A stretch of DNA of 64,000 nt from Planctomycetota bacterium (GTDB lineage Bacteria; Planctomycetota; UBA8742; UBA2392), in the NCBI GenBank assembly GCA_027493625.1, contig JAOSKM010000002.1, positions 1 to 64,000 on the forward strand, in the 5' to 3' direction. The notes below the pieces were generated by a model, which did not search any database, had not been told where the DNA came from, and saw only the letters and a list, made by a program, of their open reading frames with translations. The number at the start of each line of letters is the position of its first letter. Position 1 is the stretch's first letter. Made by a program: the position numbers and the translations under genes. This document shows positions 26,748-44,433 of the stretch, in pieces.

Positions 26748-27652
26748 CAGATACCTCCACGTCGCTGGCGAAGCTGCCTGAACGAAAGAACGACTGCGGC
26801 GAACAAACATGGCAGGAGACGCCAGGGCGAACTCGAACCCTCACCAGTGCTGCAAGACTCGTCGTCTCCTCCACCAACGCCTCCGCTGCTACTTGGTGTT
26901 GAAACTTGGACGCTGACTGTAGTTCCCGCTGAATCAACGCCGTTTGCGTATTCGCTGAAGACGGCTACGCACCAGTAACCTGGTTGGGAGAAATTGATCG
27001 ATTGGTTTACGTCGTTTGTAGACGATAGGCTGTATTCGCCATACGTTCGCTCCATGCGCGAAACCCATGCAGTGTTTGTGCCCGGCGCAAAGACCGACCA
27101 GTTCCAAGTCAGCAGGTTGCCGGACTTGGTGACTTTGATGTTTCGAACGCCCTCTTCACCCGGATTGACGTAGACCTCCCAGAGGTGGATGAACTGGCCG
27201 GACACGTTAACTGAAGGTGTTCCGGGGAATGTTGTTCGCGTCAGGTTTACTGTGGACGGGCCGGCGTCAAAGACGACGCTGGAGACTTGAGCATGGTAGA
27301 GAGATGCCTGGCTGAACGGATTGGAGTAGGACCCGCTGGCGGTTGCCGATCCAGCAGTTGAAGCAATCGTGCCCCAGTTGCCGTTTGAAAGCAGGAAGTT
27401 GTTGTTGTAGTTGCCGTAGCTTGGTGAAGGACTTGATGACTTACCACCGATGTCTATGGCGACTGCTGATGCGTTGGTAGTTCCAGAGCCAACCGCAACT
27501 CCGTTCCACCAGCCTTGCTGAGGCGAGAATGTGAAAGACTCCGGGGACGCCACGCCGTGCAGATTCGCCGGTGCGCCCTGCGTCAGAACAGTTTGCGCGC
27601 TCATTGAGGGGCCCACCAAGACAAACAACAGGGTCAACAGATGGCGCGTCAT
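26747..27652 (-). CDS. secreted protein with C-terminal sorting-type anchor
   Basis: The start at ATG 27652 overlaps the recombinase stop in an ATGA, so the two genes are translationally coupled. The product begins MTRHLLTLLFVLVGPSMSAQ, a signal peptide. The 270-residue body is rich in Ser/Thr/Gly/Asn, with beta-sandwich-like segments (FIHLWEVYVNPGEEGVRNI, TWNWSVFAPGTNTAWVSRM, GYWCVAVFSEYANGVDSAG). The end has a Gly/Ser linker, then SPWRLLPCLFAAVVLSFRQL and RQRR, the tripartite layout of GlyGly-CTERM/PEP-CTERM-like sorting signals. It is probably a surface-anchored adhesin-like or fibronectin-III-like protein; the function is unknown. Confidence 0.65.
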   Translation of the reverse strand: MTRHLLTLLFVLVGPSMSAQTVLTQGAPANLHGVASPESFTFSPQQGWWNGVAVGSGTTNASAVAIDIGGKSSSPSPSYGNYNNNFLLSNGNWGTIASTAGSATASGSYSNPFSQASLYHAQVSSVVFDAGPSTVNLTRTTFPGTPSVNVSGQFIHLWEVYVNPGEEGVRNIKVTKSGNLLTWNWSVFAPGTNTAWVSRMERTYGEYSLSSTNDVNQSINFSQPGYWCVAVFSEYANGVDSAGTTVSVQVSTPSSSGGVGGGDDESCSTGEGSSSPWRLLPCLFAAVVLSFRQLRQRRGGI

Positions 27653-28269
27653 GGCGTCTCCTTCATTCGGGCATAGAGCATTTCCACAGCGCGCGTGGCG
27701 TCCTCGTCGAACACGTCCGCATAAACCTGGGTTGTCGTGATGCGCGCGTGGCCCAGTTGTTTTTGGACAAGGCGCAGGTTGCCGCCACTGGCGCGATAAA
27801 GTTCTGAGGCGTAGGTGTGGCGGGCGTCGTGGATGCTGTGGTCTTTGACATTCGCGACAGAACATGCCCGGTTGAATGCGTCCTGCAATGCGCGTTTCGT
27901 CATCGGCTTGCCTGTCGCCGAAGAGAGGAACACCGGCGCATCCGCAAGCATGGACTCGCCAAGAGTTTCCTTCCATGCGATGAACTCTCGCACGGTTTCC
28001 ACGAACTCCTTGCGGATGAGCACTGGGCGTGGTTTGCCGCCCTTGCCGTTCCTGACGTACACGAACGGCCGTTTCAGCTCGACGTGAAGGTCCTCGTGAA
28101 CCAGTGCAGCCATCTCGCTAACCCTCAAGCCAGTCTCAAAAGCCAGCTCAACCAGGAACCACTCAAGCCATCGAACGCGCTCACCACGCCGCTTCCTAGC
28201 CGTTCGACGAACCGCGTTTTGCTGCTTGCGCGTGAAGAACCTGCGTTCATCCAAGAACCAGCCCTTCAT
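27649..28269 (-). CDS. tyrosine recombinase/integrase
   Basis: This 206-residue protein starts at ATG 28269 (MKGWFLDERRFFTRKQQN). It has the catalytic set: Arg in ELAFETGLRVSEMAAL, Lys in NGKGGKPRPV, His-x-x-Arg in SIHDARHTYASELY, and the nucleophile Tyr in LGHARITTTQVYADVFD. The usual N-terminal SAM-like DNA-binding domain is missing or very short, so this is a catalytic-core-only recombinase. The reading upstream to 28437 lacks a good start and character. It leads a minus-strand operon of exported proteins and lies back-to-back with cas3. It may drive mobility of this cargo or phase variation. Confidence 0.8.
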   Translation of the reverse strand: MKGWFLDERRFFTRKQQNAVRRTARKRRGERVRWLEWFLVELAFETGLRVSEMAALVHEDLHVELKRPFVYVRNGKGGKPRPVLIRKEFVETVREFIAWKETLGESMLADAPVFLSSATGKPMTKRALQDAFNRACSVANVKDHSIHDARHTYASELYRASGGNLRLVQKQLGHARITTTQVYADVFDEDATRAVEMLYARMKETP

Positions 28270-28554
28270 GGGCGCGGAGCCTGCACCACGCTCTTCATCG
28301 AAGAAGCGGAAAATGAAACGCGCTATGCTCGCTGCCCACGACATCATGACTGGCGTGAATGCGCCGCGCGTACAAAAGGCTTTCGAATGACAACCGGGAA
28401 CACCGACGATGGCGGCGAAGGCTGGAAACAAAGGCAAACGCGGACGACTTCACCAAACGCTTCAAGTGTGAACTGACACCCATCCACAAACTGTCGTTTC
28501 TTCACGGCAGTGTCGCAGGTCGTCGTATGCTACCCGACAAAGTTGGAGCGACTC

Positions 28555-30837
28555 ATGAACTATGCCCGCACGGCCACGGACGCGAGTGGCGTATATCGCG
28601 ACAAGATCGACTGGCAGCCGCTGGAGGATCATTTGCGCGCCGTATCGGCCAAGGCCGCGGAGTTCGCCCTCGCCTTCGGCGCGGAAAACTGGGCGCGGCT
28701 TGCGGGTTTGTGGCACGACTTGGGCAAGTACCACCCTGACTTTCAGCAGATGCTGGAGGACGTTGCCGCCGGCAAGGACAAACGCCGTGTCGATCACTCA
28801 ACGGCCGGCGCCGCACTCGTTTGGCAGAAACTGGCCCGCAAGCTGCCACAGGACTGCCACTGGCTGTTGACCGCAACAGTCGCCGGCCACCACAGCGGCT
28901 TGGCGGATGGACTGGCCGCGTTGAGAAACCGGACCGAGGACCCACTGCACCTGCAGCGTTTGAAACAGATTGATGCCATCTCGCTGCCTCAAGACATTGC
29001 CAGACCACAGTTGGAATCACTTCATGTTGACGGCGCGTCTAAAGAGCGAATCGAGTTCCTGACACGTTTCGTGTTTTCGGTTTTGGTTGACGCGGATCGT
29101 CTTGATGCCGAACTCTTTCAGGACAAATTCCTTCCACCCGATCGGCAGCGTTCACCGTTGCGACGATATCAGCCGCTGGCCGCAATACTGCCGGAGGTTG
29201 ACGAGTACATTGACGGCTTGACCAGAGATGCTTCGTCCAGCCCTGTTCAGACTTACCGCGAAGCCGTATTGAAAGCGTGTCGCGCTGCCGCCGATCAGCC
29301 GCCTGGGGCATTTCGCCTGAACGTCGAAACCGGCGGCGGCAAGACTCTCAGCTCATTGTCGTTTGCCTTGCGCCATGCCGTGAAACACGACAAACGCCGC
29401 GTCATCGTCGTCATTCCCTTCACCAGCATCATCGAGCAGACGGCCGAGGTGTTTCGGAACGCCTTGGGGACCGATCTCAAAGACAACGTGATTGAACACC
29501 ACAGCGCTGTTGAAGAAGGCGGCGAGGGCGAAAAAGAGGAAGGCCAGTTCGACCCCGCATTCGAGCGCCGGCGACTCGCTACTGAAAACTGGGACGCGCC
29601 CATAATCGTCACCACGGCGGTGCAGTTTTTCGAAAGCCTCTACTCCGCCTCGGCGTCGCGCTGCCGCAAGCTGCACAACATCGCTGACAGCGTTGTGATT
29701 CTGGATGAGGCGCAAAACCTGCCGGTCACACTGCTGAAACCAACCGTGGACGCCATCAACCAGCTCACCCGCTGGTACAGCGCCAGTGTCGTCCTCTCTA
29801 CCGCTACACAGCCCGCATTGGAGGAGCCGTTCCCCGCGGTTCAGGGTGTTCGCGAGATTGTTCCCGCCTCAGTTCAGAAGCCGCCGCGCCGCGTTCAGGT
29901 ACGTTTGCCATCTGAACAAATGATCGAGTGGCCGGCACTGGCCGACGAACTCAAAGAATGCGAGCAAGTCCTCTGCATTACCCACAAGCGCGCGGACGCC
30001 CGTGACCTCACTGGTGCGCTGGACGGTGCCCTTGGCGACAAATCTACTGGCAACAAATCTACCATCCACCTGTCCGCCAACATGTGCGCGGAACACCGAA
30101 GCCAGGTCATTCAGCGCATACGCGACGACCTGGCGAACGACCGCTCTTGCCGTGTTGTCTCCACACAGCTTGTTGAAGCCGGTGTCGATCTCGACTTCCC
30201 GGTGGTCTATCGCGCGTTGGGTGGCTTGGATGCGATGGTCCAGGCCGCGGGGCGCTGCAACCGGGAGGGCAAACTGGAAGGAAGAGGCAGGCTGCACATT
30301 TTCAGGCCGCGAACGAATCCCCCGCCCGGGCTCGCAACGGCCGCCAAGGAAACGGGCGACTACCTGTTCAAGTCGGCCGCATTGGACGGTGGCGAGTTTG
30401 ACCTGTTCGACGAGCAAGCGACACGGCGGTACTTCAATCATTTCTACGCGAAGATGCAGGGCCGCATGGACGGCGCGGGCATCACAAACGACCGCCGCGA
30501 GTTCAGGTTCCGCACTGTCCAGGAAAAGTATCGGCTGATCGAGGACCAGGGGACACACAGCATCATCGTGCCCTATGGACGCGGGAAGCAGCTCGCTGAA
30601 CTGGCACACAGGGAGCCCAGCCCAAGGAACCTGCGCGCATTGCAACGCTATACTGTCAACGTCTATCAACGGGACTTCGACGAACTAGACCGAAGCAAGG
30701 CCATCGAGCCGCTGTTCCGCAACGCCGACAACCCTTCAACTTGGGTGCTGACAAACGACGGCATGTACGACAGGCGGTTTGGCTTGCTTGTCGCAGGCAC
30801 CAGTACAGTTACGGGTAATCTGGTGATTTCGGACTGA
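28555..30837 (+). CDS. cas3: Cas3 helicase-nuclease (type I-C)
   Basis: ATG 28555 has a GGAG site six bases upstream and was chosen over GTG 28510. The 760-residue protein carries the N-terminal HD nuclease (LWHDLGKYHPDFQ near residue 54, DHSTAGA, VAGHHSGLAD) and an SF2 helicase: NVETGGGKTLSSLSF near 257-270, VVIPFTSIIEQT, the DEAQ box in VVILDEAQNLP near 384, VVLSTATQPAL, then STQLVEAGVDLDFPVVYRAL and QAAGRCNREGK (motif VI). In type I interference Cascade recruits Cas3 to unwind and shred target DNA. All motifs look intact. It is separated from cas5 by 221 bp that hold the pseudo-array described below. Confidence 0.95.
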   Translation: MNYARTATDASGVYRDKIDWQPLEDHLRAVSAKAAEFALAFGAENWARLAGLWHDLGKYHPDFQQMLEDVAAGKDKRRVDHSTAGAALVWQKLARKLPQDCHWLLTATVAGHHSGLADGLAALRNRTEDPLHLQRLKQIDAISLPQDIARPQLESLHVDGASKERIEFLTRFVFSVLVDADRLDAELFQDKFLPPDRQRSPLRRYQPLAAILPEVDEYIDGLTRDASSSPVQTYREAVLKACRAAADQPPGAFRLNVETGGGKTLSSLSFALRHAVKHDKRRVIVVIPFTSIIEQTAEVFRNALGTDLKDNVIEHHSAVEEGGEGEKEEGQFDPAFERRRLATENWDAPIIVTTAVQFFESLYSASASRCRKLHNIADSVVILDEAQNLPVTLLKPTVDAINQLTRWYSASVVLSTATQPALEEPFPAVQGVREIVPASVQKPPRRVQVRLPSEQMIEWPALADELKECEQVLCITHKRADARDLTGALDGALGDKSTGNKSTIHLSANMCAEHRSQVIQRIRDDLANDRSCRVVSTQLVEAGVDLDFPVVYRALGGLDAMVQAAGRCNREGKLEGRGRLHIFRPRTNPPPGLATAAKETGDYLFKSAALDGGEFDLFDEQATRRYFNHFYAKMQGRMDGAGITNDRREFRFRTVQEKYRLIEDQGTHSIIVPYGRGKQLAELAHREPSPRNLRALQRYTVNVYQRDFDELDRSKAIEPLFRNADNPSTWVLTNDGMYDRRFGLLVAGTSTVTGNLVISD

Positions 30838-30862
30838 ACGGGAGAAAAGTCAAAATCTTTCC

Positions 30863-30890
30863 TTGTTTTTAACTGCTAGCTAAATAGAAT
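30863..30890 (+). promoter_or_regulatory. predicted sigma-70-type promoter of the cas5-cas2 operon
   Basis: TTGTTT at 30863-30868 and TAGAAT at 30885-30890 are separated by 16 bp and match -35 and -10 elements reasonably (the -10 differs from TATAAT at one position). Transcription would start near 30897, run through the pseudo-repeat and continue into cas5. The region is clearly more AT-rich than its surroundings. It is the only promoter-like sequence I find in the cas3-cas5 gap. Confidence 0.6.
30872..30889 (-). promoter_or_regulatory. predicted Cascade target (protospacer with TTC PAM) inside the cas promoter
   Basis: Read on the minus strand, 30889-30872 is TTC followed by TATTTAGCTAGCAGT. 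TTC is the known type I-C PAM. The 15-nt stretch equals the start of the pseudo-spacer (TATTTGGCTAGCAGT) except at position 6, the base that is flipped out and unread in type I Cascade. Matching ends after position 15. The site fills the spacer between the -35 and -10 boxes, and the PAM complement overlaps the -10, so Cascade bound here should block RNA polymerase without supporting full cleavage. Confidence 0.75.
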
Positions 30891-30951
30891 ACGATGAATG
30901 TGTGCGCCCAAACGATTCTCGCATCGAATCCGCGACAGACCGGTTCTTGCT

Positions 30952-31023
30952 GTTTCGCCTTAGCTAGGCGCGGATTGAAACTATTTGGCTAGCAGTGTCA
31001 CAGACAGCATCGGAAGTCGCCGG
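30952..31023 (+). ncRNA. CRISPR-resembling regulatory RNA (CreR/CreA-like): degenerate repeat, 34-nt pseudo-spacer, partial second repeat
   Basis: At 30952-30981 is GTTTCGCCTTAGCTA followed by GGCGCGGATTGAAAC. The last 15 nt are identical to the 3-prime end of the array repeat. The repeat hairpin is reduced but kept as CGCCT/AGGCG around TAGCT, so Cas5c could process it. The next 34 nt (30982-31015) have spacer length, and GTCGCCGG at 31016-31023 equals the first 8 nt of the repeat. Standalone crRNA-like units among cas genes that guide Cascade to a partly matched promoter site are known as CreA (with a toxin) or CreR (cas autorepressor). No toxin gene is visible, so CreR-like autoregulation is the better inference. 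Confidence 0.8.
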
Positions 31024-31058
31024 ACTGCTGATGCCCAACAAAGAGTAGAGGAGAAACC

Positions 31059-31733
31059 ATGAATCAACGAAGTCCATCAGTCAGCCTGCATGTTTCAGGG
31101 TGCTTCGCCCTGTTCACGCGCCCTGAAATGAAGGTTGAGCGTGTCAGCTACGACGTGATCACGCCGTCGGCGGCGCGCGGCGTTCTCGAAGCCATCCTTT
31201 GGAAACCGCAAATGCGGTGGCTGATCCGCCGCATCACGGTGCTCAACCCCGTTCGATTCAGCAGCTTCAAACGCAACGAGGTGGCGAGCAAGATTCCCTC
31301 CACCTTCCGTACCTGGGCACGCGAGAACAAAGGCGGCGACGGCTTCTATGCCGATGCTGACCGCGCCCAACGCAACGCGGTGCTGCTCCGCGATGTCGCC
31401 TACGTCGTCGATGCCGAGATCGAACTGACAGACAAGGCCAGCCCTGACGACAATCTCAACAAGTACACGGAGATGTTTACCCGGCGTGTCGAAAAGGGCC
31501 AGCAATTCCACCAGCCTTACCTCGGCTGCCGCGAGTTCCCCGCCGCAGTGCGGCCCACCGACGGCAGCGAGCACCCGCACAAAGACTTGCTGGGCGAACA
31601 CGACCTCGGCTGGATGCTCAATGACATCGTTTACGACGACGGCAAACCGGTGGAGCCGCGGTTCTTTCGCGCGGTCATGCGGGACGGCGTGATCGACGTG
31701 CCAGCGCTTGAGGCCGAGGGGGTGGCGGCATGA
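31059..31733 (+). CDS. cas5c: Cas5c (Cas5d), pre-crRNA endoribonuclease of type I-C Cascade
   Basis: ATG 31059 follows GAGGAGAAACC. The 224-residue protein opens SVSLHVSGCFALFTRPEMKV and SYDVITPSAARGVLEAILWK, the conserved Cas5 beginning. It has the type I-C hallmark GQQFHQPYLGCREFPAAV, and ends LGWMLNDIVYDDGKPVEPRF. In type I-C, Cas5 replaces Cas6: it cuts pre-crRNA at the base of the repeat hairpin and holds the 5-prime handle. It is the first gene of the operon under the promoter at 30863 and overlaps cas8c by 4 bp (ATGA). Confidence 0.95.
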   Translation: MNQRSPSVSLHVSGCFALFTRPEMKVERVSYDVITPSAARGVLEAILWKPQMRWLIRRITVLNPVRFSSFKRNEVASKIPSTFRTWARENKGGDGFYADADRAQRNAVLLRDVAYVVDAEIELTDKASPDDNLNKYTEMFTRRVEKGQQFHQPYLGCREFPAAVRPTDGSEHPHKDLLGEHDLGWMLNDIVYDDGKPVEPRFFRAVMRDGVIDVPALEAEGVAA

Positions 31734-33831
31734 TTCTCCAATCCCTTGCAAAACTGGCCGAGCGCGAAGGCCTGATCGAAAACCCGGACTACCAGCCGGG
31801 TGAAGTCTCCTGGGTCATCCGCCTGAATCCCGACGGCCGCTTCATCACTTTGGAGTCCCTGCTAATGCCGCCGGAAGGCAAGAAGGGCAAGCCACGCGGT
31901 CAACGCGGCCCAATCCCGCGCCCGTTTCCTGGTGCAAAACGGCAAGGTACCAAGCCGGACGCCGAGTTCCTTGTTGACAACGCAGCCTTTGTCCTTGGTC
32001 GTGACTACTCTAAGGAACAGCGTGCAGGGTCAAGAGAAGGCGAACTTGAACGACGCTCGTCCGAGTTCAAGCGGCACGTCAATGCCGCCGCGGAGGCAAT
32101 CGGGCACCCGTCGCTTCAGTCAGTCTTGGCATTCCTTACCAGCGCGGATGCGACAGAATCGGCGCGCGGTGAGGCTGACGCAAAGGTTGAAAGCAAGGAC
32201 TTCTTGTCCAATCACCTGATCGCGTTTCACGTCGAGGGCGACGCGGGGTTTGTCCACTCACTCCCGGAGATTCAGTCCTACTGGGCGTCTGTACGTAAGG
32301 CTGTGTCAATGGATGCCGAAGGGGTGCAGTGTCTCATTACGGGTGACATCGGCGTGCCCATTGACAAGCATCCGCCGATCAAACGTGTGCCGGGCAACAC
32401 CGGCCCGGGCGTGGCCATCGTGTCCTACAACTCGTCCGCGTTTGAGTCCTACGGCTTCCAGCGCAACGAGAACGCCCCAGTTTCGCGTGCGGCCGCTGAA
32501 GCCTACGCGACCGCCCTCAACCGCCTGTTGGACCCGGCCACACTGAACCCCAAGGAGCCCGGCGTCCGCCTGCCTGAACAGCGTGTGCAGGTTGCCGATG
32601 ACACGGTTGCCGTCTTCTGGACGGATCAAATCAGCGTCGTGCCTGCCGCGATTCGCCCTGCATTGGACGAAGAGGATGATGCCCTGGCCTTTTTCGATGT
32701 TCAGTTGGCCAAGCCAACTCAAACGGGGATGCCGAAAGTTGGGAAGTACCCGCGCCTCCCGCGGATGACGCACCGTCAGCCACAGCCCTGCGCGACGAAA
32801 TCGAACGCCCATGGAAGGGACAACAGGCCGGCGCCATTGAAGACCACACCCAATTCCGCCTGCTGATTCTGTCGGGCGGTCAAGGCCGCGCCACCGTTCG
32901 AGCCTTCCACACCAGCCACACCAAGGCCATCGTCACGAACATCCAGAAGTGGTTTACAGACATCGAACTTGAGGGTTGGCACGGCAGCCGCGCGCTCTAC
33001 AACATGCTGCGTGCGCTAGCATTGCGCGGCGACCGCAAGAACCTTCCGCCCAGCCTCGCCGCCGATGTGTTTGTCGCGATCATTACGGGCAAGCCTCTGC
33101 CGGTCAGTGTGCTGGAAGCCGCCGTCCGCCGAGCCCGCAGCGAACCTGATTCTGTTTTCGATGAACGGACAGGTAAGACCTATAGCGGTCGCAAGGTTAC
33201 CAGTCAGCGTGCAGCACTTCTTAAGGCGCACTTCAACAGGCTCGCCCGTCAACGAAAGAAAGTTGGGCAGCCAATCTCTTATCAGGAGGTCAAGCCAGCC
33301 ATGAACGAGACTGAACGGAATAACGGTTACTTGCTCGGGCGCATGTTCGCCTGCGTTGAAATGGTCCAAAGAATGGCTCACGCGTCTGAAAACCCGCGCA
33401 ATCAAGGAGGCGGTATCAACGCAACAGTCGTAGATCGCTATTTCGGGTCGGCCTGCGCACGGCCTCAGGCGGTCTTTCCTCAGCTCTTGAAGAACGCAAC
33501 ACACAACTATCGCAAAGCGGAGGGTTACCACGACTGGCGGTCTGGCAAAGCGGGAAAGGCTTACCGGATCATCGGGCACATCACGTCGCTCCTCGTCGCT
33601 CAGGAGAATGGGATGCCTGACTTGGGACATGAGGCTGACCTGAAAGACCAACTCAAGTGGATGACAGCCCTGATGCGCGCTTCACAAGGAACCCCTCACG
33701 GATTTCCTGGCTATCTGAACCTTGAGCAGCAAGGCCTGTTCACACTCGGCTACCACCAGCAGCGCAACGAGTTCTTCCCTAAGCGCGACAAAACGTCCAG
33801 CGAAGAACCGGCCGAGGCTGCCGCCGACTAG
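31730..33831 (+). pseudogene. cas8c: Cas8c (Csd1) large subunit, one frameshift at a G-run
   Basis: The gene starts in the ATGA overlap with cas5 and begins MILQSLAKLAEREGLIENPD. It continues with the family segments FLVDNAAFVLGRD, HLIAFHVEGDAGFVHSLPEI, CLITGDIGVPIDKHPPIKRV and LVSYNS-like AIVSYNSSAFESYGFQRNEN. At the G4 run 32725-32728 one base appears to be missing. The next frame carries on with DAESWEVPAPPADDAP, HTQFRLLILSGGQGRATVRA and YNMLRALALRGD to stop at 33831. Together this is about 700 residues, a little long for Cas8c. It recognises the PAM and carries internal Cas11c. Given an otherwise healthy operon, a base-call error is likelier than loss. Confidence 0.85.
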
Positions 33832-33881
33832 CACCATGACCAGACTCAACCACTCAACCCTGAACTAAGGAAACCATAGCC

Positions 33882-34814
33882 ATGCCTACACAAACCCAAC
33901 TCAGCACCGACAACCGCATCGACTTCGTCTATCTGTTCGACGTTCGCGACGGCAACCCCAACGGTGACCCCGACGCCGGCAACAGCCCGCGCATCGACCC
34001 GGAAACCGCTCAGGGACTCGTTTCCGACGTCTGCCTCAAGCGCAAAGTCCGCGATTTCGTTGCCGCCAGCAAGAATGGCTCTGAACGCCACAAGATTTAC
34101 GTTAAGCTGCATTCCGCCTTGCACGAGCAGCGCGAACCAGCCTACAAGGCGCTCGAAATCAAGGATGGCGGCAAGGGTAAGGACAAGACCGAGGAGATCA
34201 CCAAGGCTCGTGCCTGGATGTGCCAGAACTACTTCGACGTTCGTGCATTCGGTGCCGTCATGTCCGTCACTGAGTTCAACTGTGGACAGGTTCGCGGTCC
34301 ACTCCAATTCACGTTCGGCCGCTCCATCGACCCTGTCGCTGACCTGGAGCAGACCATTTCGCGCAAGGCAGTCGAGAAAGGTGACGCCGAGAAGCAGCTT
34401 GCCAAGGATGGTTTCATCACCGGCACTCTCGGCCGCAAGTCCATCGTGCCGTACGCTCTGTACCGCTCACACGTTTTCTTCAACCCGCACTTCGCAGCCG
34501 ATACGGGCTTTTCCGCTGAAGACCTCGAAACCAGCATCGAAGCACTCAAGATGATGTTCGAAATCGACCGCTCGGCCGCGCGCGGCCAGATGTCCGCCCA
34601 GATGCTCGGCGCGTTCGTGCATTCGTCCCCCTTAGGGAACGCCCCGGCGGGCAAGCTGTTCGACCTGATCGAGGCCCGGCGCAAGGACGATGGACGGCCT
34701 GCTCGCAACTTCAAGGACTACTCCGTCACATTCAACAGCGGCGATCTTCCGGATGTCGGTAGTTTCGTCGAAGTCCCCGGATTCACCGGCGTGTCTTTTC
34801 TGCGCTTGTTGTAG
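33882..34814 (+). CDS. cas7c: Cas7c (Csd2), crRNA backbone subunit
   Basis: A 310-residue intact protein from ATG 33882. It opens with FVYLFDVRDGNPNGDPDAGN and SPRIDPETAQGLVSDVCLKR, the RRM core motif of Cas7/Csd2, and contains ARAWMCQNYFDVRAFGAVMS and GQVRGPLQFTFGRSIDPV. Six or seven copies coat the crRNA spacer in type I-C Cascade and displace every sixth base. The gene lies 50 bp after cas8c and 51 bp before cas4. Confidence 0.95.
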   Translation: MPTQTQLSTDNRIDFVYLFDVRDGNPNGDPDAGNSPRIDPETAQGLVSDVCLKRKVRDFVAASKNGSERHKIYVKLHSALHEQREPAYKALEIKDGGKGKDKTEEITKARAWMCQNYFDVRAFGAVMSVTEFNCGQVRGPLQFTFGRSIDPVADLEQTISRKAVEKGDAEKQLAKDGFITGTLGRKSIVPYALYRSHVFFNPHFAADTGFSAEDLETSIEALKMMFEIDRSAARGQMSAQMLGAFVHSSPLGNAPAGKLFDLIEARRKDDGRPARNFKDYSVTFNSGDLPDVGSFVEVPGFTGVSFLRLL

Positions 34815-34865
34815 CGCCCAAGGAAGGGGTGGGCGGGGTTCCCGTCCACCCTTCGAGAGTCATTC

Positions 34866-35501
34866 ATGGAAACTGACGACTACCTGCCTATTTCGGGCCT
34901 TCAGCACCAGCTCTTCTGCGAACGGCAGTGCGCGTTGATCCATGTTGAGCAGGTGTGGGCGGAGAACCACTTGACCGTCGAAGGCAAGCACCTGCATGAG
35001 AAAGTGGACAAGCCGGGCTCGCAGGAGCGCAAGGGAGTTCGCATCGCGCGTCGGTTGCCGCTGCGCTCCGACCACCTGAAACTGACGGGGTTTGCGGATG
35101 TTGTTGAGTTTCACGCCGATGCTGGCCGCGAAGTGCCATTTCCCGTCGAGTACAAGCGCGGCAAGCGCAAGAGTTGGCGGCATGACGAAGTGCAACTCTG
35201 CGCCCAGGCGATCTGTCTGGAGGAGGCATTTGGCGTGGCCGTTCCGCGCGGCGCGCTGTTCTACGGCGCGTCGCGGCGGCGGCTTGATGTCGAACTCGAT
35301 GAAAAGTTGCGTGGAGCGACAGAAGCCGCGGCGCGCAGGTTTCATCAGTTGATGCGCCAGGGCATCACGCCTCCGCCAGTTTTGTTGCCGAAATGCCAGT
35401 CTTGTTCACTGCGAACTACATGCATGCCGGAGTTGAGTCACACGCCCGACGCCTCGGCATATCTCAAGAAACTCGCGGCTGGGGAGTTCAGCGATGAGTA
35501 A
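34866..35501 (+). CDS. cas4: Cas4 exonuclease of spacer acquisition
   Basis: ATG 34866 gives METDDYLPISGLQHQLFCERQ. The N-terminal Cys and the C-terminal CQSCSLRTTC cluster supply the four cysteines of the iron-sulphur site. The RecB-like nuclease motifs are visible as GFADVVEFHADAGREVPFPVE (Asp, Glu) and YKRGKRKSWRHDEVQLCAQA (the K and Q of motif QxxxY). Cas4 trims prespacers and selects their PAM together with Cas1-Cas2. It overlaps cas1 by 8 bp, which is typical for type I-C. Confidence 0.93.
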   Translation: METDDYLPISGLQHQLFCERQCALIHVEQVWAENHLTVEGKHLHEKVDKPGSQERKGVRIARRLPLRSDHLKLTGFADVVEFHADAGREVPFPVEYKRGKRKSWRHDEVQLCAQAICLEEAFGVAVPRGALFYGASRRRLDVELDEKLRGATEAAARRFHQLMRQGITPPPVLLPKCQSCSLRTTCMPELSHTPDASAYLKKLAAGEFSDE

Positions 35502-36516
35502 CACGCTTTACGTGACGACCCAGGGCGCAAGGCTGCGCAAGCAGGGCGAGACCATCGTGGTCGAAGCCGAACGCGAGAAGCTTGCCACCGTACCGCTGCA
35601 TCATCTCGATGGTGTGCTCTGCTTCGGCAACGTTTCGGCCACGCCGTTCTTGCTTCACGCCTGCGCGGAAGCTGGAGTGTCAGTTTCCTTCATGTCGGAA
35701 TACGGCCGCTTTCTCGCGCGAGTCGAGGGGCCGGTGTCGGGTAACGTGCTGTTGCGCCGGGAGCAGTATCGCCGCGCGGACGATGCGACAGCCTGCCTTG
35801 GGCTTGCTCGCGCGTTCGTGACCGGCAAGCTCGCGAACTGCCGGGCTTGTCTGCGCCGGTTTTCCCGAGACCATCCGGAACCGGACAAGTCGGCCCGCCT
35901 GAAGGCTGCGGCGGACTCGATTCAGGCGACGCTGAACAACCTTGGCTCGGCGTCAACTGTGGATCAGAGTCGTGGACACGAAGGTGAAGGGGCTTCAGTT
36001 TGGTTTGCCGCGTTCGATGACACTCTTCACGGCGACCCCGGTGAGTTTCGCTTTGAAAGGCGCTCCCGACGGCCGCCTTTGAACCGGACGAATGCGCTTT
36101 TGTCCTTCGGGTACAGCCTGCTTACCCACGATTGCTCGTCAGCGTTGCAGGCGGTTGGTTTGGACCCGGCTGTCGGTTTTCTTCATGTGGATCGACCCGG
36201 CAGATTGTCGTTGGCTCTGGACTTGATGGAGGAGTTCCGTCCTGCGCTTGTTGATCGGTTTGTGGTGTCCCTCATCAACCAGAAGCAAGTGAAAGCGGAT
36301 GGCTTCGACGTGGACGAGGGCGGGGCTGTGATCATGACGCCGGACATGAGGAAGCAATTCTTGAGTGCCTGGCAGAAGCGCAAGCAGGAGGGCATAGTTC
36401 ACCCGTTTACGCAGGAGCGGACGACGTTGGGGCTGGTGCCGTTCATTCAAGCGCGGTTGCTTGCGCGCGTGTTGCGCGGCGATTTGGAGGTGTACCCGCC
36501 CTTCTCGGTGCGGTAG
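35494..36516 (+). CDS. cas1: Cas1 integrase of type I-C
   Basis: A 340-residue intact protein from ATG 35494, beginning MSNTLYVTTQGARLRKQGET. The N-terminal beta domain has LATVPLHHLDGVLCFGNVSA. The metal-binding catalytic residues appear as Glu in GHEGEGASVWFAAF, His in VGFLHVDRPGRL and the acidic pair in LALDLMEEFRPALVDR. Family features KFLSAW-like QFLSAWQKRK and PFIQARLLARVLRGD complete it. Cas1 with Cas2 inserts new spacers at the leader end of the array. Confidence 0.95.
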   Translation: MSNTLYVTTQGARLRKQGETIVVEAEREKLATVPLHHLDGVLCFGNVSATPFLLHACAEAGVSVSFMSEYGRFLARVEGPVSGNVLLRREQYRRADDATACLGLARAFVTGKLANCRACLRRFSRDHPEPDKSARLKAAADSIQATLNNLGSASTVDQSRGHEGEGASVWFAAFDDTLHGDPGEFRFERRSRRPPLNRTNALLSFGYSLLTHDCSSALQAVGLDPAVGFLHVDRPGRLSLALDLMEEFRPALVDRFVVSLINQKQVKADGFDVDEGGAVIMTPDMRKQFLSAWQKRKQEGIVHPFTQERTTLGLVPFIQARLLARVLRGDLEVYPPFSVR

Positions 36517-36570
36517 CAGGGGCTCTTTGACAACTTGAACAAAACTGTACGCAGCCGCAAGGAGGCCAAC

Positions 36571-36861
36571 GTGCACATACTCGTAACCTATGATGTGAAC
36601 ACAGAGGACAAAGCCGGCCGAAGGCGATTGCGGCGAATCGCGAAGTCTTGCGAGAACTACGGTCAGCGTGTGCAGTTCTCGATTTTCGAAGTAAACGTCA
36701 ACCTCACTCGCTGGACAGAGTTGAAACTGAAGCTGCTTGACCTGATGGACGACAAGAAGGACAGCCTGAGGTTCTACTTTCTGTCGTCCGACGACGCGGA
36801 GAAGACTGAACACCACGGAACGAAGAAACCGAGGGATCTGGACGAACCCCTGATTCTTTAG
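36571..36861 (+). CDS. cas2: Cas2, spacer-acquisition subunit
   Basis: GTG 36571 behind AAGGAGGCCAAC is the natural start, giving MHILVTYDVNTEDKAGRRRL, a ferredoxin-like fold with the conserved YDV. It continues with GQRVQFSIFEVNVNLTRWTE and SLRFYFLSSDDAEKTEHHG. At 96 residues it has the normal length; the longer reading from 36535 would ignore the ribosome-binding site. Cas2 bridges two Cas1 dimers. It is the last cas gene, 180 bp before the first repeat. Confidence 0.95.
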   Translation: MHILVTYDVNTEDKAGRRRLRRIAKSCENYGQRVQFSIFEVNVNLTRWTELKLKLLDLMDDKKDSLRFYFLSSDDAEKTEHHGTKKPRDLDEPLIL

Positions 36862-37041
36862 TAGCGCGAAACCCAAGCGGGCACGATTTTCCCAAAGACC
36901 TTCGCGCCCGCTGCAACCAATGAAAAACATGAAGGTTAGGTCGAACAACACGAAAGGAACAAACTTTGGCGCCAAGGAAAAACACACCTTCGCGCATCCC
37001 GCTCCACAAACGCCAGCTATCAAAAGGGCTGTGGTGGGGTG
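36862..37041 (+). promoter_or_regulatory. CRISPR leader
   Basis: The 180 bp between cas2 and the first repeat contain no gene and are A-rich in the middle (36910-37000) compared with the GC-rich surroundings. The position next to cas2 and upstream of the intact first repeats, with the degenerate repeat at the far end, marks this as the leader where transcription starts and new spacers enter. Confidence 0.8.
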
Positions 37042-40000
37042 GTCGCCGGGGCACCAACTCCCGGCGCGGATTGAAACTCGTATTGCGCGTGCCAGATGCC
37101 GTGGCCGGTCGTCGCCGGGGCACCAACTCCCGGCGCGGATTGAAACGCGAACTCGGCGCTCAGCTCCGCCATGCGCTCGAGTCGCCGGGGGCACCAACTC
37201 CCGGCGCGGATTGAAACGCGTCAAGGAAGCCGTCGATGTCAGCGAACTCGGTGGTCGCCGGGGGCACCAACTCCCGGCGCGGATTGAAACTGCTGCTCAC
37301 GTTCGCGCTCTGCGCGGCGTTCCTGTCGCCGGGGGCACCAACTCCCGGCGCGGATTGAAACACATCGGCGGGGCAGACCCGGTCGTGCAGATCCTGTCGC
37401 CGGGGGCACCAACTCCCGGCGCGGATTGAAACCTTACCGAGCGACACATCCGCACGTGTCGCGAGCGTCGCCGGGGCACCAACTCCCGGCGCGGATTGAA
37501 ACAACGAGAACCCCAGCGCGGTTCCTGAGGAAATCCGGTCGCCGGGGGCACCAACTCCCGGCGCGGATTGAAACGGCGTCAAGGCCATCGGCGACACACA
37601 GTTCGGCGGTCGCCGGGGGCACCAACTCCCGGCGCGGATTGAAACTTTTGAAGGGCAGATACGTCTGGCGAAAGGCGGGGTCGCCGGGGGCACCAACTCC
37701 CGGCGCGGATTGAAACTTCTTGCGGCCCTTGCCGATGGGGGATGCGCCGAGTCGCCGGGGGCACCAACTCCCGGCGCGGATTGAAACATCACCACGCGGC
37801 CGCTCACGCCCCTGGTGCGGTGTCGCCGGGGGCACCAACTCCCGGCGCGGATTGAAACCTCGGCGCCGGCGCCCTCGGCCGCGGCGGCGGCCGTCGCCGG
37901 GGCACCAACTCCCGGCGCGGATTGAAACTTCTTGCTCACGGTCTGTCTCCTGTGCAAAGGGTCGTCGCCGGGGGCACCAACTCCCGGCGCGGATTGAAAC
38001 GCCGTCACCTACCCGCGCATCCTGAAGGCGCTGGTCGCCGGGGGCACCAACTCCCGGCGCGGATTGAAACAACGAAGGCGCGCTGATCGAAAGCACGGCG
38101 GGAACGTCGCCGGGGGCACCAACTCCCGGCGCGGATTGAAACGGCGCAACGGCAAGCAGCTGTACCGCGTGCAGCCGATGTCGCCGGGGGCACCAACTCC
38201 CGGCGCGGATTGAAACAACAGGTAGCGTGGCAACGGCAGCGACAACGGCGTCGCCGGGGGCACCAACTCCCGGCGCGGATTGAAACATCATCGGCAACAA
38301 CAGCAACGGCCTGGCCATGGTCGCCGGGGGCACCAACTCCCGGCGCGGATTGAAACACCGCATGGCCGATTACGCCGAACGTGGACTTCACGTCGCCGGG
38401 GGCACCAACTCCCGGCGCGGATTGAAACACCTCCACGACGTACCAGCCGAAGCCCTACCCCGTCGCCGGGGGCACCAACTCCCGGCGCGGATTGAAACCC
38501 GAAACCGCAATAAGTGTCACGGCTGTGTAAATGTCGCCGGGGGCACCAACTCCCGGCGCGGATTGAAACCGCCTGAGCATCAACCCCAAGCCCCATGAGT
38601 TATGTCGCCGGGGGCACCAACTCCCGGCGCGGATTGAAACCGTGGCGCCGCGCAGAACTATGTAGGCGATTTTGTCGCCGGGGGCACCAACTCCCGGCGC
38701 GGATTGAAACCCTGACCACGGTTGCCGTTCGCCTCTGACCGAGTCGCCGGGGGCACCAACTCCCGGCGCGGATTGAAACAGCGTCTCAGTCCCTGCCGGG
38801 ACCAACATCGTCGTCGCCGGGGGCACCAACTCCCGGCGCGGATTGAAACTTCAAGTCGGGGATTTATCAGGCAGTGGCGACGGTCGTCGCCGGGGGCACC
38901 AACTCCCGGCGCGGATTGAAACTTCTGCCCGAACCGCCAGCACCTGCGGACGGCTGTCGCCGGGGCACCAACTCCCGGCGCGGATTGAAACCCCTCGGTG
39001 TTATCCAGCTCGTTCTTGCCGACGGTCGCCGGGGGCACCAACTCCCGGCGCGGATTGAAACCGCGCGCCTATGCCAAGCTCGCCATCCGCATACTGTCGC
39101 CGGGGGCACCAACTCCCGGCGCGGATTGAAACATCGACGGAGGCTGGACCGAACAGGAGCCAACCAAGTCGCCGGGGGCACCAACTCCCGGCGCGGATTG
39201 AAACCTCGAAAAGCCGAACCAGAGCACCGCGACCTATGTCGCCGGGGGCACCAACTCCCGGCGCGGATTGAAACAATTTGCCGAACTGCCATGAGTCCCA
39301 ACCGCCCGTCGCCGGGGGCACCAACTCCCGGCGCGGATTGAAACCCCAAGGGCGGCGGCACATGGCGCACGGGCTGGTGTCGCCGGGGGCACCAACTCCC
39401 GGCGCGGATTGAAACATCAGGATGTCTTTGATCTGGCCGCCGCTTGGGCGTCGCCGGGGGCACCAACTCCCGGCGCGGATTGAAACCTCACCCCCGAACA
39501 ACTTGTGCAAACCCAGCTTGTCGCCGGGGGCACCAACTCCCGGCGCGGATTGAAACGGTGTTCGCTTGGTGGACGCGGGCTAGGGTCATGTCGCCGGGGG
39601 CACCAACTCCCGGCGCGGATTGAAACGGGATCTCGCGGATTACTTCGCAAGAGTCGCCACGGTCGCCGGGGGCACCAACTCCCGGCGCGGATTGAAACCT
39701 CGACGCTACGCTGGATGAGGCGCAGATACGCGGTCGCCGGGGGCACCAACTCCCGGCGCGGATTGAAACTGTCGCGCAGCAGGGCCAGCGGCAGGCCGGT
39801 GGTGTCGCCGGGGGCACCAACTCCCGGCGCGGATTGAAACGTGGGGCGTGCGCTGCACCGAGCGCAGGGCGCGCAGGTCGCCGGGGGCACCAACTCCCGG
39901 CGCGGATTGAAACTCGCAGACGATGGTGTTGGCGTTGCCCGCGTCATGTCGCCGGGGGCACCAACTCCCGGCGCGGATTGAAACTGCCGTGTTACCCGTC

Positions 40001-41885
40001 CGGTTGGCTTGCGATAGCCCGTCGCCGGGGGCACCAACTCCCGGCGCGGATTGAAACATTTCCGACGACTCCACGATCAGCAGGTACACGCCCGTCGCCG
40101 GGGGCACCAACTCCCGGCGCGGATTGAAACGCGCTTGCACCATGCGATTGCGTCGGCGACAAGTCGCCGGGGGCACCAACTCCCGGCGCGGATTGAAACT
40201 CACTCTCTTTCTCGGGCTGTTGACCCGTCAAGGTCGCCGGGGGCACCAACTCCCGGCGCGGATTGAAACTCCACGAACAACACCGCGATCACGGCCGCTG
40301 CGGCGTCGCCGGGGGCACCAACTCCCGGCGCGGATTGAAACTTCACGTACAGGTCCATCGCCTCTTCGCTCTTGAGTCGCCGGGGGCACCAACTCCCGGC
40401 GCGGATTGAAACCGCCATCTCCATGACCTTGGGCGTGATCCGCGTGTCGCCGGGGGCACCAACTCCCGGCGCGGATTGAAACATCGAGGCGGGCAACGTC
40501 TGGATTCCCGACTCCGGTCGCCGGGGGCACCAACTCCCGGCGCGGATTGAAACCGCTGCGCCGCCACCCAATCAATAACATCAAGGGTCGCCGGGGGCAC
40601 CAACTCCCGGCGCGGATTGAAACCACGGGGCGGTCCACGATAACAACCGGCGCGACGTCGCCGGGGGCACCAACTCCCGGCGCGGATTGAAACATCCGCA
40701 TGGCGGGAAGGTATCTCACGGGCTGCGGTCGCCGGGGGCACCAACTCCCGGCGCGGATTGAAACAACCTAGCCAACCTGAACCTCACAGTCACCATGTCG
40801 CCGGGGGCACCAACTCCCGGCGCGGATTGAAACGTCCACAGCGCCAGCGTCCGACGGATCACCTGAAGTCGCCGGGGGCACCAACTCCCGGCGCGGATTG
40901 AAACATCCACCCAATCTCCATACACACACCGGCCCAGCGTCGCCGGGGGCACCAACTCCCGGCGCGGATTGAAACGTTGAGCATTGCAGCGGCTCGCTTG
41001 TCGAGGGCACGTCGCCGGGGGCACCAACTCCCGGCGCGGATTGAAACGCGTTTGCCTGTGCTGCTTGCCGATAGGCTTGGGTCGCCGGGGGCACCAACTC
41101 CCGGCGCGGATTGAAACGTTCACGACACCGTAGACCACGCGACCGAGTACGTGTCGCCGGGGGCACCAACTCCCGGCGCGGATTGAAACCTCCGGGCATG
41201 ACCAAGTCGCGCCTTGTCAGCGGGTCGCCGGGGGCACCAACTCCCGGCGCGGATTGAAACGTGATGCCCACGACGTGCGCCTTATACTGCGCGAGTCGCC
41301 GGGGGCACCAACTCCCGGCGCGGATTGAAACAGTACTTCCCCCACCGTGCGCCCCGTAGACGCCGTCGCCGGGGGCACCAACTCCCGGCGCGGATTGAAA
41401 CTTTTGCTTCGCTATTGCCATAGCGTTTGTGTTGGTCGCCGGGGCACCAACTCCCGGCGCGGATTGAAACAACGTGGTGTCGTTGGGGATCAGTACCAGC
41501 AGGTGTCGCCGGGGGCACCAACTCCCGGCGCGGATTGAAACGTTACGGTCGTTACGTCACGCACAGCGTTACGCGTCGCCGGGGGCACCAACTCCCGGCG
41601 CGGATTGAAACAAGTACCTGCTCGACCAGGTGCGTTTCCGGGGCGGGTCGCCGGGGGCACCAACTCCCGGCGCGGATTGAAACGACTGACATAGCTCGCA
41701 ACCACAACCGGGCGGGCGTCGCCGGGGGCACCAACTCCCGGCGCGGATTGAAACCCGCAAAGTCACCGTGAAGGATGTCCGCGAACGCGTCGCCGGGGGC
41801 ACCAACTCCCGGCGCGGATTGAAACATGCAGCAGCGACAGCTCCGCCGGCGGCATGGGTCGTCGCCGGGGGAACGCGCGAGAAAC
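37042..41885 (+). CRISPR. type I-C CRISPR array, about 68 repeats plus a degenerate terminal repeat
   Basis: The 37-nt repeat begins GTCGCCGGGGGCACCAAC and ends TCCCGGCGCGGATTGAAAC. Its CGCCGGG/CCCGGCG stem and GATTGAAAC tail are standard for type I-C. I count 68 complete copies (plus or minus one) between 37042 and 41825, with spacers of about 33-36 nt. Six copies (numbers 1, 2, 7, 13, 28 and 63) have four Gs instead of five and are 36 nt. The last unit at 41861-41885 keeps only GTCGCCGGGGG and GAAAC around a changed middle, marking the trailer end. The size implies long active acquisition. I found no obvious repeated spacer by eye. Confidence 0.98.
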
Positions 41886-42007
41886 AGCAGCTTTGCTTGA
41901 CCGCCCAAGAAATTTTACACATCCGGCAACCACACTCTTGACCGTCGGCAAATAATTATGTTTTGTTTTCAGCAGTTCATATTGCCGCAAAGCAATCGTG
42001 GGGGTGC

Positions 42008-42745
42008 ATGAAAAAAGCAGCCGAAACATCCTTTGCCGCCACAGTCCACAAGCTACTGAACGAGCGCGGGTGGAAGCAGGGCGACCTCGCGACACGGGCT
42101 GAACTCGATGCCGGGGTTTTGTCTCGCTTGCTGAAGGCCCGCCGCGAGCCGTCACTGGAGCATTGCCTTGCCTTAGCGCGGGCATTGGACATGCCAGCCT
42201 TGGAGTTTCTCGCTCTTGCAGGCCTCCCGCACCTTGCTAAGGAACTTGTTCCCGTCGCCCAGTTCCGTGAGTTGGAACGTGCCCACCTGGATCTGCTGAA
42301 GAACGCGAGTCAGTTTGAGGCGCACAATGCTTCACTTGAAGCCGAACTGAAAACCTCACAACGTAAAACTGGCGAAGCAATGGTCCAACTTGAGCAGTTG
42401 AGGGCAACCTACCGCGAACACTCCGAATCGGCAGAGCGGGCAAAACGCCTGGAGATGGACAACACTCAACTCATGGCTCGCGTGGACCAATTGGAAAGAG
42501 AGCTGCGCACAAAGGCAAGCCAATGCCGCCAGTTGGAAGTATCGTTGGACCAAGCCAACGCCGCCACCATGCACAACTATCGTTGCTCCGCTGAGCGTGA
42601 CCGCATCATTGAGCAGCTTCGACAGCAGCTCACGCGTATAGCTGGCGACAAGGCCGCCGCAGGCTGGGTTGGGGCCTTGCTCGGAGCGATTACAATGGCT
42701 GTCATTGCCGGGGTCGTAGCCGGACCGGCCAGCGAGCGGAGGTAG
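42008..42745 (+). CDS. membrane-anchored XRE-family HTH / coiled-coil protein
   Basis: ATG 42008 begins MKKAAETSFAATVHKLLNER. Residues about 8-65 form an XRE helix-turn-helix (GWKQGDLATRAELDAGVLSR, LLKARREPSLEHCLALARAL). Residues about 85-205 are a long coiled coil (ELERAHLDLLKNASQFEAHN, RVDQLERELRTKASQCRQLE). One transmembrane helix ends the protein (AAGWVGALLGAITMAVIAGV). A DNA-binding N-terminus and a membrane-anchored C-terminus in one 245-residue protein is unusual. It lies 3 bp ahead of the TIR gene, whose ribosome-binding site is inside its last codons, so the two form an operon. It may be a sensor or membrane-tethered repressor for the TIR effector; the role is inferred. Confidence 0.8.
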   Translation: MKKAAETSFAATVHKLLNERGWKQGDLATRAELDAGVLSRLLKARREPSLEHCLALARALDMPALEFLALAGLPHLAKELVPVAQFRELERAHLDLLKNASQFEAHNASLEAELKTSQRKTGEAMVQLEQLRATYREHSESAERAKRLEMDNTQLMARVDQLERELRTKASQCRQLEVSLDQANAATMHNYRCSAERDRIIEQLRQQLTRIAGDKAAAGWVGALLGAITMAVIAGVVAGPASERR

Positions 42746-42748
42746 TTC

Positions 42749-44433
42749 ATGCCGAACTCGACAACGGAGACAAGAAAGGCCCCTATGCGGCACACCGCAC
42801 AACCCTGCCCATACGACGTGGCGCTGTCCTTCGCAGGAGAGAATCGAGACTTGGCACGAACCCTTGCGGAAGGGCTACGCGCCGCCGGATTTCACGTATT
42901 CTTCGATGAATTCGAGCGCGTCAGGTTGTGGGGGCCAATCTTCAAGAAGAGCTGGGCAGCGTGTACCTCGAGGAGGCGCGGTACTGCATCGTATTGGTGT
43001 CGGAACACTACTTGCAGAAGGAGTGGACGAACCATGAACGTCAAGCCGCCCTGGCAAGGTCGATCAAGGCGCGTTCCAACACAGTTCTCGCCATCAAATT
43101 GGACGAATCTGAACTTCCGGGGCTGTTGCCCACCATAGGCTATGTCGATGCCAAGAACTTCACCGCTCTCCAGATCGTAGAGCTCGCAGTACAGAAGTTA
43201 CGAACATTAACACCTGACCGCCCTGCTGACGTCCTCCCTGCTGTCGAAAACAGAACAACTGCCTCGGCCGAAATTGAGCCTGCCGACAAAGACGCACCGC
43301 TCGATGAGGTCGAGGCGACGAATGCGCTCATGGCCGTGCTCAATCAACGGTACGGGACAAGCATTGGCGTGGAATGGGACCAGCGACCAACTCCGGAGCG
43401 GCGCTATCGACTCAACATCGTCTTGGCGTTAATCGTGGCTCTACAGCCTGACGAGGTATTCGGATGCCCATATCAGGGAGACTACGGTCAAAAGCTCTTT
43501 GTTCACACGTTCAAGCGCGGGAGATTCCGGGACAAGGCCAAGAACTTCAACTCCAACCTACCGTTAGCAAAACTCAAGGTCGGCAATCGAACTCTCTACC
43601 TCTACCTGAACCCGCTCATTTTAACCACCACGCGCACTGGGTCTTCACTGGTCGCCATTCTCGATCAAGACCTCAGCAATGACGGTCGGGAAATAGACTG
43701 GGAAAACGACAACTGCCTTCTGTTCGCGGACGCGTACCGGGACGATCCAAACAGTGGAGAACGCGAGAGCCTGAAGGCTTTCAAGGCCATTCCGGTACCA
43801 CACCATTTGTTTTGTCATCAAACTCTCTACTCCAAAGAGTCGCGACTTGCCGAAAGCAACGGTTTTCAAGTGTTGCCCCACATAGACACGTTAGGGCGTG
43901 CACTTGCCGCATGGCGGACCATCATAGCCGACAACCCACAACTCCGGCCTCGTCAGGAGAGTGCAGGCCTCGTACAGAGGCCACAATCCGTCCATCCTGA
44001 CATCGAGATCAAGACTGGCTTCAAACGGTGGAACAAGTTCAACCAGCAACACCACGACTATGAACTGCAAGTCGGCTTCCTCAACAATGGTCTCATCGAC
44101 ATAGATCGCTGGCGTGCCGAGGTGTACCTCCCCCGCATGGTTGTACTTCCACAACTCCAGCCAAAAACCACAACGCCGGAGGCTTCCGGCCTGTCCAAGA
44201 CGCACTGCACTTTCCTATTTGGAAGTGAGTTCCGCAAACAAGCAGGGATCGAGCACAGGCTGCTGCGCGGGCACAACCTGCGCCTCCATCCCATAAGGTA
44301 CTTCGTCAACCAGCGCATGTATTACGACCAACAGTTTGTCTTCAGTCTGCCTGTTCGAATTGTCCTCTACATCGACGGCAAACAACCGATCATCTTCGAG
44401 AAGCCTTTCGGCTCGAACTTCGAGAACTTCTGA
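42749..44433 (+). pseudogene. TIR-domain protein, one frameshift in a G-run
   Basis: ATG 42749 follows GGAGGTAGTTC. The TIR domain (residues about 24-150) begins YDVALSFAGENRDLARTLAE and HVFFDEFERVRLWG. At the G5 run 42930-42934 one base is missing; the next frame continues ANLQEELGSVYLEEARYCIV, SEHYLQKEWTNHERQAALAR and LLPTIGYVDAKNF. This is the bacterial TIR type with an LWG...EEL motif that holds the catalytic Glu. About 380 further residues show no domain I recognise; the last part (KTGFKRWNKFNQQHHDYELQ, RMYYDQQFVFSLPVRIVLYI) looks like a beta-sandwich. TIR enzymes cleave NAD or make nucleotide signals in defence. The new C-terminus may be the sensor. Confidence 0.75.

Follow-up and report, generated by a model that had tools for sequence, protein, structure and literature searches.

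A crRNA-like element in the cas3-cas5c gap of a planctomycete type I-C locus: a candidate for CreR-type control of the cas operon

CreR, the cas-regulating RNA, is a crRNA-like RNA that originates from a mini-CRISPR and has a limited match to a cas promoter, and it is described for types I-B, I-E and V-A (PMC13131331; also PMC12737573). CreA is the guide of CreTA in the type I-B systems of Halobacterium hubeiense and Haloarcula hispanica (PMC8501985, PMC9458426, both as excerpted). The excerpt of PMC8501985 describes creA as having two degenerate repeats, with the 5' handle preserved in the first and the 3' handle in the second. Mutants of CreA showed that positions 6 and 12 are free and that positions 1-5 and 7-11 are needed, and the PAM is TTC (PMC8501985, same excerpt). 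In H. hubeiense, creT and creA share a transcript; creA is thus under the promoter that is repressed, and it is located upstream of the cas operon (PMC8501985, excerpt). RNA anti-CRISPRs (Racrs), which include RacrIC1, are solitary repeat-like RNAs that are encoded by phages or other mobile elements and act as inhibitors (PMC10651486, excerpt). Among the titles and first lines of abstracts listed in literature searches, none describes a CreR or CreTA of type I-C; the 2023 CreR paper and a 2023 survey of crRNA-like elements may include I-C cases. That survey, by Shmakov, is said to contain repeats that stand alone and whose spacers match cas promoters in part, most of them in type I systems.

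We analyzed a window of 64,000 nucleotides, positions 1 to 64,000 of contig JAOSKM010000002.1 from a Planctomycetota bacterium (assembly GCA_027493625.1). The window contains a type I-C locus with cas3 at 28510-30837 and, after a gap of 221 nt, cas5c at 31059-31733 on the plus strand. The cas5c product matches TIGR01876 above the cut-off and is the presumed processing enzyme; its gene is the first of the presumed target operon. The cas8c gene (31730-33831, plus strand) is split over two frames, 31730-32866 and 33004-33831, with the change at about 32.7 kb. Both pieces match TIGR01863, and the frame change may be a real break or an assembly error. The remainder of the presumed operon, cas7c, cas4, cas1c and cas2, occupies 33882-36861 (plus strand) and is followed at 37042-41826 (plus strand) by a CRISPR array in which the exact repeat end occurs 68 times and which would supply competing crRNAs. 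An Rfam scan of 28000-43000 gave no match. The same genome carries a second type I-C locus, here called L083.

The cas3-cas5c gap contains a crRNA-like unit with degenerate repeats, a feature of CreR, and its two-repeat anatomy resembles that of CreA. The first degenerate repeat (30952-30981, plus strand) folds into a hairpin with the stem CGCCT/AGGCG (30956-30970; z -1.5) and continues into the handle CGGATTGAAAC (30971-30981). Its final 15 nt (GGCGCGGATTGAAAC, 30967-30981) are the same as those of the array repeat. The pseudo-spacer TATTTGGCTAGCAGT starts at 30982 and extends to 31015 on the plus strand. Next, 34 nt after the degenerate repeat, comes GTCGCCGG (31016-31023), which corresponds to the 8 nt that open the array repeat. 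An earlier note on this DNA had claimed these parts, and reading the sequence confirms the repeat, its 15-nt identity and its stem. The claimed 34-nt spacing to GTCGCCGG also holds, but GTCGCCGG sits inside a 28-nt hairpin (31007-31034, plus strand; -15.8 kcal/mol, z -2.6) that we take as the second degenerate repeat, so that the free part of the spacer may end at 31006 and be 25 rather than 34 nt long. The 3' hairpin is also present in the fold of the whole element (z -1.5), which favors a competing pairing of the spacer with the loop of the first repeat.

Spacer positions 1-15 fit the sequence TATTTAGCTAGCAGT on the minus strand at 30886-30872, with position 6 as the sole mismatch, and the fit ends after position 15. 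The agreement is thus 14/15 nt, unbroken over positions 1-5 and 7-15. Directly 5' of the target, at 30889-30887 of the minus strand, lies TTC, the type I-C PAM, so that the target with its PAM spans 30872-30889. When TTC is required and positions 6 and 12 are ignored, the target scores 13/13. The best score among 50,000 dinucleotide shuffles of 30838-30951 was 11, reached by 3 shuffles (13 of the 50,000 had no TTC site at all). With neither a PAM nor skipped positions assumed, the observed 14/15 compares with a best of 12 in 10,000 shuffles. The pattern with at most two mismatches occurs in the 4.7-Mb genome only at the target and in the spacer itself. For the 68 array spacers, neither the window nor the second I-C locus offers anything comparable (10 contiguous positions at best); among the 69 guide-like spacers of the window, the pseudo-spacer is the one that has such a site. 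The earlier note's account of the match, its break at position 6, its end and its PAM therefore stands, with 0 of 50,000 shuffles as good. The rule it invoked, that Cascade does not read every sixth base, is supported by the mismatch at position 6 here and by a pile-up of mismatches at 6 and 12 elsewhere. A short PAM-flanked match with a free sixth base is again a feature of CreR, and this design is common to other loci. Judged by its design, the element is a Cascade guide.

Close relatives offered no comparison. In 16 genomes of the family and 20 of the class, cas5c was found only in the window's own genome, and in the four genomes of the family of L111, another locus from the same phylum, only in L111's own. 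Covariation of guide and target was therefore tested across distant loci. Type I-C loci were gathered by their cas5c from the best 80 of 586 species genomes. To these were added 29 loci from other genomes of the phylum (40 of 392 genomes match, own genome included), the second locus of the window's genome and 7 viral contigs, and later 12 plasmids and 1 more viral contig. An unbiased search covered 117 of 118 loci, L118 being left out for too little upstream DNA. In up to 900 nt upstream of cas5c, the 17 nt following every handle-like 8-mer (7 of 8) were read, and their best match elsewhere in the region was recorded at a cut-off of 13/17, with no PAM or skipped positions assumed. In these 117 regions, from a sample that includes the best 80 of 586 species genomes, 29 guide-site pairs reach the cut-off. 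The preceding trinucleotide is TTC in 13 pairs, CAG in 4, CTG in 2 and ten others once each. The 16 pairs with other trinucleotides were taken as chance, one of them being the L013 pair seen from its target side. In a swap control, in which handles of one locus were set against regions of another, 700 trials gave 82 pairs, only 1 of them with TTC. The covariation that the earlier note had expected of related I-C loci is thus present, across distant loci.

The 13 TTC pairs contain 33 mismatches, of which 17 fall at position 6 (10 pairs) or position 12 (7 pairs). Positions 1-5 have none, positions 7-11 have four, position 16 has four and position 17 has six. The free positions 6 and 12 are the ones found by mutation for CreA (PMC8501985, excerpt). 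When TTC and the skip rule are fixed, 13 of 131 loci match, compared with an average of 0.17 over the remaining 63 trinucleotides. Within the 131-locus set L092 lies wholly inside L073, the cas3 end was found for 127 loci, and the automatic gap rule misplaced L083. A gap wider than 150 nt is present in 30 of these 127 loci, and the 30 include all 13 loci of the strict count, which gives 13/30 wide-gap loci in a sample that includes the best 80 of 586 species genomes. Further cases appear at looser cut-offs or by eye in L007, L044 and L024 (Azotobacter vinelandii CA). Guide and target vary between loci yet fit each other within each locus, and the same element design thus recurs in unrelated bacteria with other sequences. 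A hairpin 3' of the spacer has a z below -1 in 15 of 17 elements (mean -3.3), and a hairpin before the handle in only 5 of 17. Among the viral-contig loci (7 + 1), only L115 has an element; the 12 plasmid loci (50 records with a match), which include those of Nitratidesulfovibrio vulgaris and Thermus, have none. Two phage records have cas5c-like matches. In L062 and L122 a handle-like sequence precedes cas5c, and no target site was found for either. A TTC hit in L028 lies within cas3 and was taken as chance.

What the target controls depends on its surroundings. The earlier note placed it between the promoter boxes TTGTTT and TAGAAT. The target stretch is indeed rich in AT, at 0.62 compared with 0.43 in the 900 nt that precede it, but the presumed promoter, TTGTTT-16-TAGAAT at 30863-30890 (plus strand), has only 8/12 consensus bases, and the scanner found no promoter above its cut-off in the gap. 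All 17 targets examined are in stretches that are AT-richer than their upstream 900 nt. Boxes of at least 9/12 are within reach of 7 of the 17, compared with 10.8% of random positions; the window's own boxes have 8/12. From the presumed promoter through the guide to cas5c, no terminator was found. Since neither a clear SD-led ORF nor a terminator intervenes, repression of cas5c-cas2 is the favored reading. The layout of L111 also favors it, because the target there lies directly upstream of cas5c, with the guide further upstream and a hairpin and T run at its end. By this layout, L111 would be a plain cas autorepressor.

We therefore favor, with a probability of about 0.6, a CreR-type autorepressor in which the guide RNA would direct I-C Cascade to repress cas5c-cas8c-cas7c-cas4-cas1-cas2 without cleavage. 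The guide RNA would likely be cut by Cas5c and loaded into type I-C Cascade, which would then be led to the TTC-flanked site upstream of cas5c and repress cas5c-cas2. Since the search turned up no terminator on the way from the presumed promoter past the guide to cas5c, guide and cas operon are probably on a shared transcript, or the guide is made by read-through from cas3. On a shared transcript, repression would limit guide and Cascade together, and the loop would be self-limiting. With fewer free Cascades, or with many competing array crRNAs, cas expression would rise. Derepression by anti-CRISPRs, which the earlier note proposed, is a further, hypothetical case. Cutting by Cas3 at the target appears unlikely because the match is short, by analogy with CreA (PMC9458426, excerpt). 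Of the earlier reading of a CreR-like autorepressor of cas5-cas2, the part that stands is a Cascade guide whose short, PAM-flanked match lies in a promoter-like stretch upstream of cas5c; the cas operon is the more probable target. Against the cas operon speak the weak boxes, the competing fold, the two-frame cas8c, possible leaderless ORFs and SD-led ORFs in five relatives.

These last ORFs point to a different circuit, a CreTA or CrePA module in which Cascade would silence a small toxin gene, or a toxic RNA, that begins immediately beyond the target; losing Cascade would then harm the cell, and any effect on cas5c would be secondary. In the proteobacterial relatives L007, L010, L035, L045 and L077, an SD-led ORF of 26-54 codons separates target from guide. 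L013 and L048 have the same layout, with ORFs of 56 and 61 codons that lack a clear SD. Several of these ORFs look hydrophobic by eye, and by layout the loci resemble CreTA or CrePA. In the window itself, ATG 30894 and 30898 open ORFs of 32 and 21 codons that could be leaderless, and one known CreT is leaderless (PMC8501985, excerpt). However, no ORF in the gap has more than 4/6 SD bases or tandem rare codons, the 32-codon ORF reads through the repeat, and neither ORF looks hydrophobic by eye. The SD-led ORFs of the five relatives make a toxin circuit the main rival to the CreR reading; we consider such a circuit possible but clearly less probable in the window.

The small gap ORFs of L007, L010, L013, L035, L045, L048, L077, L024 and L062 are candidate Cascade-repressed peptide toxins. 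A Pfam scan of eight small ORFs of relatives found no family above the cut-off, and the L010 peptide retrieved nothing but itself in a homology search. By eye, the ORFs of L010, L013, L024 and L062 share an LxLDLRxR-like pattern followed by a hydrophobic stretch that ends near LGR. L064, from an Aquabacterium MAG, has between target and guide, about 180-147 nt before cas5c, an SD-led mini-ORF ending AGG AGA TCC, which is reminiscent of a tRNA-sequestering CreT with tandem rare arginine codons. The gaps of L005, L055 and L129 are each filled by a similar small ORF, whose KIYVG-like motif is, by eye, reminiscent of GIY-YIG nucleases. Four planctomycete loci (L015, L044, L097 and the second locus of the window's genome) have the guide in reversed orientation and an ORF after the target. 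The reversed gap element of this second locus (target G000:C1:2420724-2420743) has spacer positions 4-20 that fit a TTC-flanked site except at 6, 12 and 18. Its positions 1-3 are mismatched, and 14/17 counted positions compare with a best of 12 in 10,000 shuffles. The target is unique in the genome and precedes an 86-aa ORF with no Pfam match.

The element could also be a relic, a formerly working guide that has become inactive through a broken cas8c or a dead promoter. The two-frame cas8c and the weak promoter boxes are consistent with this, as are the three mismatched positions of the second-locus element. The match in the window is intact at all but position 6, however, and the frameshift may be an assembly error. 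Moreover, the second locus has a Cas8c of 642 aa and an element with the same 11-nt handle as the window's; should the break be real, Cascade could come from this locus. We regard a relic as improbable. The likeness of target and spacer, which are inverted copies 95 nt apart, might instead reflect an inverted-repeat operator, an RNA stem or a self-acquired spacer, the repeat similarity being beside the point, but this is very unlikely: TTC and the mismatches at every sixth base are seen again in unrelated loci, L036, L064 and L111 have guide and target in direct rather than inverted orientation, and a self-acquired spacer is expected to match over about 34 nt, not 15. A Racr was likewise rejected, since the element lies between cas3 and cas5c and not outside the cas locus on a phage or mobile element.

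The second locus has further features. Its cas1 (L083 7651-8238, minus strand) is a 195-aa ORF, compared with 340 aa in the window, so each I-C locus of the genome may lack one intact gene that is present in the other. Similar tyrosine-recombinase ORFs are found upstream of cas3 in both loci, at 27649-28437 (minus strand) in the window and at L083 16029-16793 (plus strand); the former has a Phage_integrase match, and the latter was recognized by eye. About 6.8-8.0 kb downstream of the second cas5c start (G000:C1:2408000-2425000, minus strand), a regular I-C array of 15 repeats is followed by 15 units that keep only a GATTGAAAC-like handle and have a different hairpin each, at an irregular spacing of 51-141 nt. 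Twelve of the 15 hairpins score at least 6.0, compared with 14.2% of 2,000 control positions. This bank looks like a set of crRNA units with diverged repeats that would be unable to recombine. No other locus of the 131, many with short flanks only, has at least four such units. Three of the 15 spacers were searched in the whole genome, and no self-target was found. Directly after the bank, at L083 2276-4477 (minus strand), lies a long ORF with an AAA domain and no PADLOC match.

In summary, the window's element is a candidate I-C instance of CreR-type control. Compared with CreR as described for types I-B, I-E and V-A, it belongs to subtype I-C, would rely on Cas5c in place of Cas6, has a planctomycete host, and is placed between its own target and cas5c; its repression is a prediction. 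It shares with CreA the seed of 1-5 and 7-11, the TTC and a place upstream of the cas operon under the promoter it would repress, and it differs in that no toxin was recognized in the window and the match reaches position 15. It resembles a Racr as a solitary repeat-like RNA for a I-C system, and differs in its place inside the cas locus and in its PAM-flanked match upstream of cas5c. We would give even odds to the broader view that I-C systems from Pseudomonadota to Planctomycetota share a Cascade guide in the cas3-cas5c gap. In some loci (the window, L111) this guide would throttle the cas operon; elsewhere it would keep a small peptide gene repressed as an alarm for Cascade loss. The comparison supplies unrelated loci, including that of Azotobacter vinelandii CA, in which this can be tested, and points out candidate Cascade-held small peptide genes in type I-C. 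If CreR logic does operate in I-C, a common subtype without Cas6, self-regulation by guides would seem to be widespread among type I systems.
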